Origin: Calditrichales bacterium MX18-03
Lineage (GTDB): Bacteria; Bacillota; Clostridia; Lutisporales; Lutisporaceae
DNA: 64,000 nucleotides
Reading direction: 5' to 3'
NCBI GenBank assembly: GCA_021083345.1
Contig: JAJGRE010000001.1
Span: 1,240,001-1,304,000, forward strand
Part shown: one piece after another, positions 21,268 through 27,016 of the stretch
Layout: every line of letters begins with the position of its first letter
Numbering within the stretch: the stretch's first letter is position 1
Notes under the pieces: generated by a model
What the model saw: only the letters and a program-made list of their open reading frames with translations
Database searches by the model: none
Told to the model about the DNA's origin: nothing
Translations under genes and position numbers: made by a program

Positions 21268-21361
21268 AGGTAGTAAATCTAAGGCAATGAATAAATCCGC
21301 ATAGCCGTTGTATAATAGGTCTTAGATTATCAAAATGGGACATTCATTAGGGAGGTATTTG

Positions 21362-22963
21362 ATGTATCCGAAAGTCGCTTACTTCTGCATGGAATATGGT
21401 ATGGACACCGCATTCAAGATGTATGCCGGGGGCCTTGGCATCCTGGCCGGCGATTACTTGAAGGGTGCGCGGGACCTGTCGCTGCCCATGGTGGGCATCG
21501 GCATCAAATGGAAGCAGGGCTACACCGATCAGCTGGTCGGCAAGGATGGAAAGCCCTATGACGCCTATCACAACTATCAGTATGACTGCCTGGAGGACAC
21601 CGGTGTCTGCGTGACGGTAAAAATCCGTCAGCGGGACGTACGCTGCAAGGTATGGAAGGTGGAAGCCTTCGGCAATGTCCCTCTCTATCTCCTGGATACC
21701 GATTTGCCCGAAAACGAGGATGCCTGGATCACCGGGCAGCTGTACGGCTGGTTCGGCGAGGAGAGGATCGCACAGGAAATGGTGCTGGGGATTGGCGGTG
21801 TCAGGGTGCTGAGAGCTTTGGGAATCGATGTGGATGTCTACCACTTCAACGAAGGCCATGCCGTTCTGGCTGCACTGGAGCTGATCCGGGAGAAAATGGA
21901 CTCCGGCCTTAACTTTGAAAATGCTGTGGAGACCACAAAGCAGGAGGTTGTATTCACAACACACACGCCTGTACTGCAGGGAAATGAGTCCCACTATCTG
22001 GACAGACTGGCCTATATGGGTGCTTATAACGGCTTGTCCCATGAGCAAATGATCCATATCGGAGGCGCTCCTTTTAATATGACCGTAGCGGCACTGCGTT
22101 TGAGCAAAAAAGCCAACGCTGTGGCACAGCTTCACGCAGAGACTGCCAATTGCATGTGGCAGCATGTGGATTACAACAAGCCAATTATCGGCATAACCAA
22201 TGCCATCCATGTGCCGACATGGGTGGACCCTGAGATTCTATCTGCGGTAGACCGTGAAGGTGACCTTTGGCAGGTGCACATGCAGAACAAAAGAAGCCTT
22301 TTGGACTTTATCAAGCGGCGCAATGGCGTGGAGTTGGACCCTGACGTCCTGCTCATCGGCTTTTCACGGCGGGCTGCCCCTTATAAGCGCAGCAACTTCA
22401 TCTTCAGTGATGAAAACATCATCGCTCCCCTTTTGGAAGGCCGAAAGCTTCAGATCGTCTTTTCCGGCAAGGCGCATCCCTTGGATGACACCGGCAAAAG
22501 CATCGTAGAAAACCTGGTCGGAATGTCCAGGCGCTATCCCAATGCAGTGGTTTTCCTGGAAAACTACGATATGGAGATCGGAAGAATGCTGACACGGGGC
22601 TCCGACATCTGGCTGAATAATCCCAGGCGGCCCCTGGAGGCCAGCGGCACCTCCGGCATGAAGGCGGCCATGAACGGCGTCCTGAATTTCAGCGTGCTGG
22701 ACGGCTGGTGGCCGGAAGCCTGCAGGCACGGCGTCAACGGCTGGCAGATCGGCGGCGGCTTTGAAAGCTGCGACGTCTGCGAGCAGGACTGCCATGACCT
22801 GAAGTCGCTTTATCAGGTCCTGCTGGAGGAAATCCTGCCAACTTATTATGAACGGCGGGATCGGTGGGTCGATATGATGAAAAACAGCATCCACTCCACC
22901 CGCAAGCAATTTGCGATGGAACGCATGCTGTCTGAATACTACGAACTTCTATATAAGGCTTAA
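21362..22963 (+). CDS. Alpha-glucan phosphorylase, short form (GT35)
   Basis: 533 aa, the short bacterial/archaeal type that lacks much of the N-terminal dimerisation region of classical glycogen phosphorylase. It releases glucose-1-phosphate from alpha-1,4-glucans or maltodextrin using pyridoxal phosphate. The N-terminus reads PKVAYFCMEYGMDTAFKMYAGGLG; the PLP lysine is in EASGTSGMKAAMNGVLNF; GFSRRAAPYKR and FTTHTP-type segments are also present. ATG 21362 is chosen because GGGAGG lies six nt before it; the ATG at 21335 has no site. Divergent from malQ and sharing its operator type, it is probably the maltodextrin phosphorylase of the module, distinct from the long GlgP at 44406-46838. Confidence 0.93.
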   Translation: MYPKVAYFCMEYGMDTAFKMYAGGLGILAGDYLKGARDLSLPMVGIGIKWKQGYTDQLVGKDGKPYDAYHNYQYDCLEDTGVCVTVKIRQRDVRCKVWKVEAFGNVPLYLLDTDLPENEDAWITGQLYGWFGEERIAQEMVLGIGGVRVLRALGIDVDVYHFNEGHAVLAALELIREKMDSGLNFENAVETTKQEVVFTTHTPVLQGNESHYLDRLAYMGAYNGLSHEQMIHIGGAPFNMTVAALRLSKKANAVAQLHAETANCMWQHVDYNKPIIGITNAIHVPTWVDPEILSAVDREGDLWQVHMQNKRSLLDFIKRRNGVELDPDVLLIGFSRRAAPYKRSNFIFSDENIIAPLLEGRKLQIVFSGKAHPLDDTGKSIVENLVGMSRRYPNAVVFLENYDMEIGRMLTRGSDIWLNNPRRPLEASGTSGMKAAMNGVLNFSVLDGWWPEACRHGVNGWQIGGGFESCDVCEQDCHDLKSLYQVLLEEILPTYYERRDRWVDMMKNSIHSTRKQFAMERMLSEYYELLYKA

Positions 22964-24280: not shown

Positions 24281-24898
24281 ATGAAAAAGCTGAGCAGGGA
24301 ATTCTATTTGCAGGACACGCTGGCGGTGGCAAAAGCGCTTCTGGGAAAACACCTGGTTCACGAAACGCCACAGGGGCGGTTGGTGGGAAGGATCGTCGAA
24401 ACCGAAGCTTACATCGGACCGGAGGATAAGGGCTGTCACTCATACGGCGGCAAAAGGACAAAAAAAAATGAGGTCATGTACCATATCGGCGGTACTGCCT
24501 ATATTTACCTGATTTATGGGATGTACTGCTGCTTCAATGTGGTCACGGAAGACGAAGGCAAAGCCTCAGCCGTGCTGATCCGGGCCCTGGAACCGGTCGA
24601 GGGCCTGGATGTCCTGTCGTCCAACCGCTTCGGCGTACCTTACGGCGGGCTGACAGGCCGGCAGCAGTACAGCCTGACCAATGGTCCGGGCAAGCTGTGC
24701 ATTGCAATGGATCTTGGAAGGGAAGACAACGGCACAGATCTTTGCGGCTGCCGGATCTATATAACGGAGCCGGAGCTGACGCGATCCTTTGAGATAGTAG
24801 AGACCGCCCGCATTAATATCGATTATGCCGAAGAGTACAAGGATATGCCTTGGCGTTTCTACATCAAGGACAGCAGCCACGTATCAGTAAAAGATTGA
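24281..24898 (+). CDS. 3-methyladenine DNA glycosylase (AAG/MPG family)
   Basis: 205 aa, full length for the alkyladenine glycosylase family that excises alkylated purines in base excision repair. Clear signatures: LLGKHLVHETPQGRLVGRIV, ETEAYIGPEDKGCHSYGG with the catalytic Glu, GTAYIYLIYGMYCCFNVVTE and LTNGPGKLCIAMDL. A GAGGG site lies three nt before the ATG, rather close. It is monocistronic and ends five bases before the first of two long palindromic repeats. Confidence 0.95.
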   Translation: MKKLSREFYLQDTLAVAKALLGKHLVHETPQGRLVGRIVETEAYIGPEDKGCHSYGGKRTKKNEVMYHIGGTAYIYLIYGMYCCFNVVTEDEGKASAVLIRALEPVEGLDVLSSNRFGVPYGGLTGRQQYSLTNGPGKLCIAMDLGREDNGTDLCGCRIYITEPELTRSFEIVETARINIDYAEEYKDMPWRFYIKDSSHVSVKD

Positions 24899-24903
24899 AA
24901 AAG

Positions 24904-24959
24904 GGGACGGTTCTTGAATTGAATGGTGCAGCTGCACCATTCAATTCAAGAACCGTCCC
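24904..24959. repeat. Perfect 56-bp palindrome, REP-like copy A
   Basis: Two perfect 28-bp arms beginning GGGACGGTTCTTGAATTGAA with no loop. Preceded by AAAAAGG and followed by TGATTTA. It lies in the 3' space between convergent genes and may also act as a terminator. Copy B is at 26274-26331 in the same orientation. Confidence 0.9.
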
Positions 24960-24977
24960 TGATTTACTTTAAATTAT

Positions 24978-26087
24978 TTATTTAACGCCAGCTTTAATAA
25001 TACTATCAGCCAGTTTCAGATATTTGCCTACATCAACGGAGCAGCTTGTGATGGCGTCAGCTTTTACGACTTCGGATCTTGCTGCACCTTTAAGCTTTGC
25101 TGTATCAATTGCACCATTTGTTGCGCTTACTGTATAAGCCGCATACTTACCACCAAGCATCTTATTGAAGTCAAGAACAGATGGGTGCGTTGCATCTCTC
25201 TGGCAAGTTGGGAATTGGTTTATATCAAAACCAGCTTTTTTGTACTCAGCAATCAAAGTTGACATCTGCTTATCCCAAGCAAAAATCGTGTCTGCCGGTC
25301 TGTCATCAGAAGGTTTTACCATAACATACTGTTTTGCTTTTGAATAAGCAACCTTGCCCCAGTTTCCCTGTCCGCCTGAAGAAAGAATACCGGGCTTCAT
25401 GAAGTAAGCGGGACCCATAACATCGATATAAACATCATGCGGTTTGGCATCTTTGAAAGTAACAGCAACCTTCATCATGTCGCCGCTTGTAGCAGCTTCA
25501 CTGTACTTACCGTAGTTGGTAACGGTTTGCGGCTTGAGGTTGCTCGGAAGCTTCTGGCTGCCGATCCAAACATCGCCCTTAATTACAACGTTATTAAACT
25601 TCGCAGAATCATATTCTTCCTGTGTGCCAAAGCCCAACTGGCCTGTGATGGTGCAGTATTCGAGAGTAAAGCCCTTAGCCCGTACTCTTACGTTGCCGTC
25701 AAGGGTTCCATAAGAAAGCTTTGCGTTTTCAGCATTTACTACCAATGTAGGAACCTTTAATGTAAATAACTGTTCGCCGCCGATATTGGGTGAGGAGTGA
25801 TAGTACAAACCGAGTTTTCTTCCCGGTACTGTGCCACCTTCTTTTCTAATGTCACCTGACCAAACAAGCTCATTTGCAACAGTAACATCGCTGCCAAGTG
25901 TTGTAATCCAAGTTCCATTTGCTCCTAAAGAGTTCTGTAATTCTTGTTCTGTTGTAAGCATTACAGAGGCACTAGCTACAACATCAGGATAAATACCAGG
26001 TGTTTTTGCTTCTTCAGCCAATGCAGTCATGCCAAAGGTAGACAGAACCAAGGTTGTAACCACAAGCAACGCAATCAGTTTTTTCAT
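24978..26087 (-). CDS. Secreted protein of unknown family
   Basis: 369 aa starting MKKLIALLVVTTLVLSTFGM, a typical signal peptide with probable cleavage after TALA. The start at 26087 has GGGAGGG upstream. The mature part (~27-369) has a central stretch rich in short alternating beta-strand segments (TLVVNAENAKLSYGTLDGNV, GFTLEYCTITGQLGFG, FNNVVIKGDVWIG) that suggests a beta-helix or beta-roll, then a mixed alpha/beta end. No catalytic motif is recognised. The gene is AT-richer than its neighbours and is bounded by the two long palindromes. Function unknown; export and its isolation suggest an accessory gene. Confidence 0.8.
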   Translation of the reverse strand: MKKLIALLVVTTLVLSTFGMTALAEEAKTPGIYPDVVASASVMLTTEQELQNSLGANGTWITTLGSDVTVANELVWSGDIRKEGGTVPGRKLGLYYHSSPNIGGEQLFTLKVPTLVVNAENAKLSYGTLDGNVRVRAKGFTLEYCTITGQLGFGTQEEYDSAKFNNVVIKGDVWIGSQKLPSNLKPQTVTNYGKYSEAATSGDMMKVAVTFKDAKPHDVYIDVMGPAYFMKPGILSSGGQGNWGKVAYSKAKQYVMVKPSDDRPADTIFAWDKQMSTLIAEYKKAGFDINQFPTCQRDATHPSVLDFNKMLGGKYAAYTVSATNGAIDTAKLKGAARSEVVKADAITSCSVDVGKYLKLADSIIKAGVK

Positions 26088-26273
26088 AAGCACCCTCCCA
26101 AAATAATAAATTTGTCTCACTAATTATTATCTTATGCTAATGTTAATTACATGTCAATCCATATTATGGACTACTTTGTGAATTTTATAATGAGAATATC
26201 GTATTAGCAGCTTTTTTCATTAGCTTTCTCAACTAGGATGTTTTGTTTGTAGAGTAGGGGGAATGAAAAAAAA

Positions 26274-26331
26274 GGGGACGGTTCTTGAATTGAATGAACC
26301 GGTTGGCTCATTCAATTCAAGAACCGTCCCC
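26274..26331. repeat. 58-bp palindrome, REP-like copy B
   Basis: 24-bp perfect arms beginning GGGGACGGTTCTTGAATTGA around a 10-base centre. The arms match copy A at 24904-24959, and the flanks AAAAA on the left and GATTTA on the right also match. It lies immediately after the stop of the membrane-protein gene at 26339 and upstream of the secreted-protein gene. Confidence 0.9.
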
Positions 26332-26338
26332 GATTTAC

Positions 26339-27016
26339 CTATGCCGATTTGGGGCCCTTCTTCTTGGCAAATGCCAGGATACCGCCCAGCGCGATGGAAA
26401 GGAAAGAAGCCATCAGAACACGGTATTCTGGTTTCAGGATGAATGTGATGGTATGTGCAGGAATCCAGAAAAATGGAATGGTCTTTATGACCACAAAGTT
26501 GATGAAACCATAGAAATCGATCCTGCCGACCACATCCTTCAGCCGGACTTTGAAAATGCGGTCCAACTTTCCTACTCCCAGATCGATATAGGTATCGGTA
26601 ACCCGGTGCAATAGCATAAAGGTCGGCGCAAAGATCAGGTTCATCAGGGTACTGGTTAAAAACGCAAATAATAGCGTGCGTCCAAAGGTTCCTTCAGCCG
26701 CCGTGGGCAAATACCCCTTGCTCATAGATCCGGTTACCCCATTGGCAAACAGGTCGAAGACAATGACGAAGGCCATACCCAGAACGCCCCACACAAATGC
26801 CCTGTATGGCATGCCGATGGGCTTTTTCCAATCTCCTGCCACGATTCTTAATGCCAGCAGCTCTCCCATGGATGCCAGTATTGCTACCTTGACAAAACCC
26901 ATGAGGTAGGGGTAGGCTTTAGTTGCTGCAACAAATGCATGGTGTGTCACCGGTACAACCAGGATCGCGACAACTGCCAGCAGTGCAGCCAGCCAGGCAA
27001 AATCATACTTTTTCAA
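26339..27016 (-). CDS. Integral membrane protein, Mpv17-like pattern
   Basis: 225 aa with about five or six hydrophobic segments. The segment FINFVVIKTIPFFWIPAHTI followed by LKPEYRVLMASFLSIALGGI recalls the Mpv17/PMP22 family pattern (W-x-P ... P-x-x-x-R), but the match is loose, so the family is tentative. It starts with TTG at 27016, eight nt after GGAGG, and ends in KKKGPKSA. The MgtC gene lies 62 nt upstream on the same strand and may be cotranscribed. No transport or enzyme role can be derived. Confidence 0.65.
   Translation of the reverse strand: MKKYDFAWLAALLAVVAILVVPVTHHAFVAATKAYPYLMGFVKVAILASMGELLALRIVAGDWKKPIGMPYRAFVWGVLGMAFVIVFDLFANGVTGSMSKGYLPTAAEGTFGRTLLFAFLTSTLMNLIFAPTFMLLHRVTDTYIDLGVGKLDRIFKVRLKDVVGRIDFYGFINFVVIKTIPFFWIPAHTITFILKPEYRVLMASFLSIALGGILAFAKKKGPKSA

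Follow-up and report, generated by a model that had tools for sequence, protein, structure and literature searches.

Repeats of the REPIN and TIR-dimer type are inferred to spread through RAYT/TIRYT (HUH Y1) enzymes. As defined by Bertels and Rainey (2011, PMC3116915), a REPIN is a doublet of REP sequences that forms a hairpin and is associated with a RAYT. TIRYT genes and their TIR dimers, which carry the motif GGGGWSAS, were described by Di Nocera et al. (2013, PMC3733652), and PMC6006769, which likewise reports the motif, treats the corresponding enzymes as subclass 2.1 TnpA-REP. The account of TIR dimers also describes conv-REPs that lie within 20 bp of gene 3' ends and sometimes provide the stop codon (PMC3733652). 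Palindrome-associated transposable elements (PATEs) have been described in Haloquadratum (PMC3119063). Here we compare these systems with a pair of long palindromes in a 64,000-nucleotide stretch (the window, G000:C7:1240001-1304000) of a clostridial genome, G000, which comprises 4.69 Mb in 15 contigs.

The two palindromes are the longest perfect-arm hairpins of the window, in which the third-longest arm measures 17 bp. REPIN-like element 1 (24898-24967, no strand assigned) has a 56-bp core at 24904-24959 that is a perfect palindrome with 28-bp arms, as the initial annotation had stated. An A-run at 24898-24902 (T5 on the minus strand) precedes the core and GATTTAC follows it, and the element separates the stop codon of the gene at 24281-24898 (plus strand) from that of the gene at 24978-26087 (minus strand). 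REPIN-like element 2 (26266-26339, no strand assigned) was first recorded as a perfect 58-bp palindrome, but its core at 26274-26331 is perfect only in its 24-bp arms, the 10-nt centre between them being imperfect. Its A-run at 26266-26273 reads T8 on the minus strand, and its right flank is GATTTACC, the final C of which is part of the TAG stop codon of the gene at 26339-27016. The arms common to both elements span 22 bp, or 23 on the left counting an extra G, rather than the 24 bp first reported, and the centres differ. The flanks and orientation agree as described, with AAAAA on the left and GATTTAC on the right of both. Exactly one gene is enclosed, also as described; it is encoded on the minus strand (24978-26087), and its 369-aa product has a signal-peptide-like N-terminus. 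Repeat, gene and repeat exactly make up the stop-to-stop space in G000. We rejected the idea that the palindromes are a duplicated or matched pair, given that their mutual flank similarity ranks 63 of 240 and each has closer flank matches elsewhere. Rfam matches to the hairpins were sub-threshold, mostly to microRNA precursor models, and we took them as chance.

Counting the arm over the whole genome, as the initial annotation had proposed, placed both palindromes among at least 18 dispersed two-armed copies, which lie on five contigs, mostly between genes, and are scattered singly at gene 3' ends. This number comprises 16 canonical two-armed copies, including both elements, and two degenerate ones (L036 and L039). 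A 20-nt arm with up to two mismatches occurs 18 times per strand in G000. Single arms are present too (for example L040 and L118), and L116 shares the ends but is otherwise a distinct palindrome. The centres of the copies vary and are mostly self-complementary, and the flanks often prolong the stem. We aligned the 16 copies from G000 with one copy from a second genome, G336. In these 17 sequences 93.3% of alignment cells are paired, as in the inverted-doublet hairpin of a REPIN, and 11 of 30 pairs, flank pairs included, have changed on both sides, which is above all 500 shuffles. We regard this covariation as support for the stem and not as proof, because related sequences can beat shuffles without structure. 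With their dispersed, extragenic copies, the palindromes look like REPIN/TIR-dimer-like repeats with a GGGGACGGTTCT tag. The 1.72-Mb contig C7 has five palindromes, all of them within 122 kb (G000:C7:1144492-1266330); they may cluster according to replication position, or may have hopped locally.

In a REPIN system the unit is expected to flank a RAYT gene of its own genome. A search of the whole G000 assembly for Y1_Tnp gave 0 matches at E ≤ 0.001, so neither a unit beside a RAYT gene nor the Y1 transposase itself was found in this genome, the latter as previously noted for the window. Y1 genes scored above the cut-off in 28 of the 41 genomes of our relatives search (G000 counted). The 11-mer GGGACGGTTCT, on either strand, was present at 7 of 37 long-Y1 loci (99,276 bases) versus 1 of 56 control loci of relatives (202,208 bases), and at several loci it adjoins the Y1 gene both upstream and downstream (G003, G006, G011, G033 and G036). 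Other Y1 loci have GGGGACAG forms (G002 and G012) or no such motif. One Y1 gene (L087, G033:C100) sits in a dense REP cluster amid eight GGGACGGTTCTGTGTCTT-type units. Across the class, the 20-nt arm with up to two mismatches occurs in 7 of 391 genomes, G000 among them. G336 contains eight arms and one full inverted doublet (L185). Two of its arms, 1 kb apart on opposite strands (C2 472738 and 473725), flank a Y1 gene (472947-473279) and match the G000 arm over 19-20 nt; a unit of this type thus does adjoin a RAYT-like gene in some genome. The best NCBIfam match of that Y1 protein is REP_Tyr_transpos, with a score of 77.2 bits where the cut-off is 80. Because the tag and the exact arm adjoin Y1 genes in relatives and in G336, respectively, the repeats are evidently of the RAYT/TIRYT kind, and the likeness to REP palindromes drawn in the initial annotation is borne out. 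The G000 repeats would have been mobilised by a RAYT that has since been lost or is unassembled.

We examined where the repeats lie relative to genes. Fifteen of the 16 aligned copies (14 loci elsewhere in the genome and the two elements here) lie at most 25 bp behind a stop codon, the exception being L031; positions were judged from crude ORF calls, and 2.0% of window positions lie that close behind a stop. Nine copies occupy gaps between convergent genes (L025, L026, L027, L028, L029, L030, L034, L035 and element 1), where the call for L028 depends on a 93-aa ORF and the left ORF at L035 enters the core by 15 bp. Six occupy gaps between co-directional genes (L024, L032, L033, L037, L038 and element 2), and the setting of one is unclear. 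At a control locus, the convergent gap between FapA and TyrRS holds the repeat in G000 and other hairpins in G002, G008 and G012. At the locus studied here, the gap in G004 and G009 (53-55 bp) contains a hairpin instead of a repeat. There are thus two loci at which ordinary terminator hairpins of relatives stand in place of the G000 repeat. Both elements present a G+C-closed hairpin followed by a U-run behind a stop codon, with T-rich tails on the minus strand. A terminator scan flagged both elements on the minus strand; it returned 3 sites versus 3.3 in shuffles and by itself was not significant. Judging from hairpin and T-run, each element is probably the intrinsic terminator of the minus-strand gene before it. 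Element 1 stands behind the stop codon of the secreted gene and element 2 behind that of the next minus-strand gene (26339-27016). Since each palindrome follows the stop of its own gene with a T-run on that strand, the apparent bracketing amounts to two consecutive gene ends. A parallel case exists in G013, where the orthologue of 26339-27016, a non-foreign gene (L134 1471-2280, G013:C276), lies between two single REP units of the same orientation at consecutive minus-strand 3' ends, with a stem of TGAGCCAC around GGGGACGGTTCT and no Y1 gene. Bracketing can therefore arise without cargo.

The neighbours of the locus reveal an empty site. To the left lies a gene for a methylpurine-DNA glycosylase (PF02245; 24281-24898, plus strand), and to the right one for a conserved membrane-type protein with only a sub-threshold Mpv17/PMP22 match (26339-27016, minus strand). 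These two conserved genes form a convergent pair in relatives, where the gap between them measures 53 bp (G004), 55 bp (G009), 93 bp (G001), 375 bp (G017), 492 bp (G014), 1069 bp (G011), 1433 bp (G002) and 2746 bp (G007). The site accepts insertions, as the three largest gaps are filled with other DNA. In the remaining relatives, either one gene is missing or the pair was not observed side by side. The comparison with relatives that had been suggested thus did uncover an empty site, in relatives of other genera, and the secreted gene is a lineage-specific insertion between ancestrally adjacent convergent genes. Elsewhere in the window, an ORF at 21335-22963 gave a partial carbohydrate phosphorylase match in three stretches.

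The enclosed gene encodes a secreted or cell-wall-type protein of an unnamed family. The initial annotation had called its family unknown. This stands insofar as no Pfam model matched at E < 0.1 and NCBIfam matches were sub-threshold only, but residues ~28-170 are ~30% identical to a domain that recurs in further secreted proteins from this family of bacteria. An 898-aa secreted protein of the peptidoglycan-binding type, encoded ~6.5 kb to the left of the window (L230 2786-5482, G000:C7:1230785-1233481), contains three copies of the domain with ~30% identity to the N-terminal half of the secreted gene product. In Thermotalea metallivorans the homologue carries a PG_binding_1 domain as a fusion, and large secreted proteins contain tandem arrays of similar domains; the fusion and the tandem arrangement make a cell-wall role likely. 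The predicted structure was poor (mean pLDDT 40.3, pTM 0.37) and a fold search gave no match at E ≤ 0.001, so we claim no fold. Phage and plasmid searches gave one partial match each, ~30% identical across 41% of the query, and thus nothing to suggest that a phage or plasmid carries the gene. A sigma-70-like promoter, TTGACA-17-TAAGAT (26129-26157, minus strand), lies in an upstream stretch conserved with relatives.

Homologues with 77-82% identity are present in G002, G007, G014 and G017 and also in T. metallivorans (L199), in other neighbourhoods, and the four G-numbered genomes contain 0 copies of two-armed GGGACGGTTCT palindromes. Homologues in relatives have ~100 bp of conserved upstream sequence, including the promoter, and a conserved downstream terminator. 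Homology to the G000 gene spans 24970-26197: the upstream part is kept to 26197, and downstream it ends at 24970, where the repeat begins. As the initial annotation had observed, the gene is AT-richer than its surroundings: at 0.381 its GC3 is below that of every other gene among 52 in the window (second-lowest, 0.493), and the codon-usage test it called for ranked the gene as the most atypical of 49. Identity at four-fold sites between the G000 and G002 genes is 78.3% versus 38.7% expected from codon use, and it ranges from 63.7 to 86.0% in the other eight pairs reported. TyrRS pairs show 24-34%, at the codon-use expectation, and the glycosylase and membrane-protein genes show 23-33% between G000 and relatives. 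Of six genomes searched for ribosomal proteins as highly expressed controls, three yielded S12. Because its dS between G000 and G002 is 0.43 where the neighbours are saturated, and its GC3 is the lowest of 52 genes, the secreted gene is evidently a horizontal acquisition. Together with the empty site, its atypical codon use upholds the earlier view of a foreign-looking gene inserted in this lineage. Contigs of three homologue-bearing MAGs (G007, G014 and G017) end in or at the secreted gene (L054, L055, L052 and L053), so some MAG placements are unsafe and may be assembly artefacts. The G007 contig ends share 99 identical overlapping bases, as expected of a gene repeated in that community.

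We weighed several explanations for this arrangement. Low silent divergence could reflect constraint on the nucleotide sequence instead of transfer, in which case the secreted gene may be an old resident. The copies G014b and G017b, which share an RNase-Z-like neighbour that is saturated and yet retain 86% four-fold identity in the secreted gene, point that way. We consider constraint very unlikely, however: third codon positions vary 2-3 times more than first and second ones, as in ordinary coding evolution, the gene occupies different places in different genera, and the terminator sequence is conserved across loci. Moreover, shuffling within codon boxes left the identity above expectation in all nine pairs tested, which also led us to reject codon bias as the cause of the low divergence. 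A different possibility is that a REPIN was already resident in the gap, and that an incoming gene with one or two REPINs recombined with it, leaving a repeat on each side. REPINs do occupy similar convergent gaps elsewhere in G000, and such an event would account for the loss of both the ancestral hairpin and the gene's own terminator. It would require recombination over ~60 bp or less, though, exchanging repeat halves gives no better-paired flanks by eye, and no donor with gene and repeat was found; we judge it improbable.

The initial annotation had suggested a repeat-bounded cassette. In such a case the two repeats would be the left and right ends of a passenger unit, comparable to IS200/IS605 ends or to PATEs, and a Y1 enzyme, since lost, would have moved repeat, promoter, gene and repeat as one single-stranded piece into the terminator slot. 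Several observations suit this idea: the site is empty in relatives, the block fits exactly from one stop codon to the other, the gene has foreign codon use and the repeats share one orientation. Against it, the four gene-bearing relatives of our first search have 0 copies of the palindrome, each of the other 14 aligned copies is found alone at the end of a gene, the two repeats have dissimilar centres and flanks, with closer flank matches elsewhere for each, and G000 has no Y1 gene. Palindromes scattered without a cassette pattern were named at the outset as evidence against a cassette, and this is largely what we observed. A cassette is therefore not supported, and we hold transport of the gene between RAYT-type ends to be quite unlikely. 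We are reasonably confident of an account with three parts, taken jointly: the palindromes belong to a REPIN/TIR-dimer family that carries the tag GGGGACGGTTCTTG and is dispersed, non-autonomous and low in copy number; repeats of this family occupy 3'-end (terminator) slots; and the secreted gene arrived independently of them, not as their cargo, the repeats at two consecutive 3' slots being a coincidence. Repeats of this type would have settled in 3'-end slots, including those after the secreted gene and after 26339-27016, and the gene, having come in by horizontal transfer, would have landed between two convergent genes that were neighbours in the ancestor. In random placements of 17-19 copies, the closest pair lies within 1371 bp in 7.4-9.5% of cases, an estimate that is conservative because the copies cluster. 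For such a pair to flank, in addition, the gene that is most foreign in the window, the probability is lower than this 7-9%. Also counting against coincidence, the inserted block exactly fills the stop-to-stop space with a repeat at each edge. Moreover, neither the ancestral terminator hairpin of the site nor the conserved terminator of the gene remains, a loss for which a joint insertion would likewise account.

These results bring a clostridial family into the range of REPIN/TIRYT-type repeats and describe in G000 a genome that retains such repeats without the enzyme. The repeats stand where relatives have ordinary terminators and may replace them. The silent divergence of the secreted gene between genera is far below that of other genes, which marks it out as a cell-surface gene that is often exchanged and deserves a name. 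Like the PATEs described in PMC3119063, which are related to IS605 ends, the locus is a transposase-free stretch with palindromes near both ends. Its site is empty in relatives of other genera. In contrast to PATEs, no second repeat-gene-repeat copy was found in G000, where the repeats are mostly alone. The resemblance to REPINs as set out in PMC3116915 extends to two inverted REP units, a variable self-paired spacer, dispersed extragenic copies and a unit beside a Y1 gene, here in other genomes. The G000 repeats differ from them in numbering ~18 rather than hundreds, in having no Y1 gene, in the tag GGGGACGGTTCTTG and in a very long, nearly perfect stem. A literature search for the literal string GGGGACGG returned no REP title among the matches listed, and we do not claim its absence from print. 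Compared with the TIR motif GGGGWSAS given in PMC3733652, GGGGACGG does not conform, departing at position 7 (G for A) while fitting at 7 of 8 positions, and the G000 dimers are without an enzyme. Y1 genes flanked by inverted repeats with GGGGAC..G, dispersed dimers and the habit of lying at gene 3' ends are nonetheless features that these repeats share with the TIRYT systems of that report.
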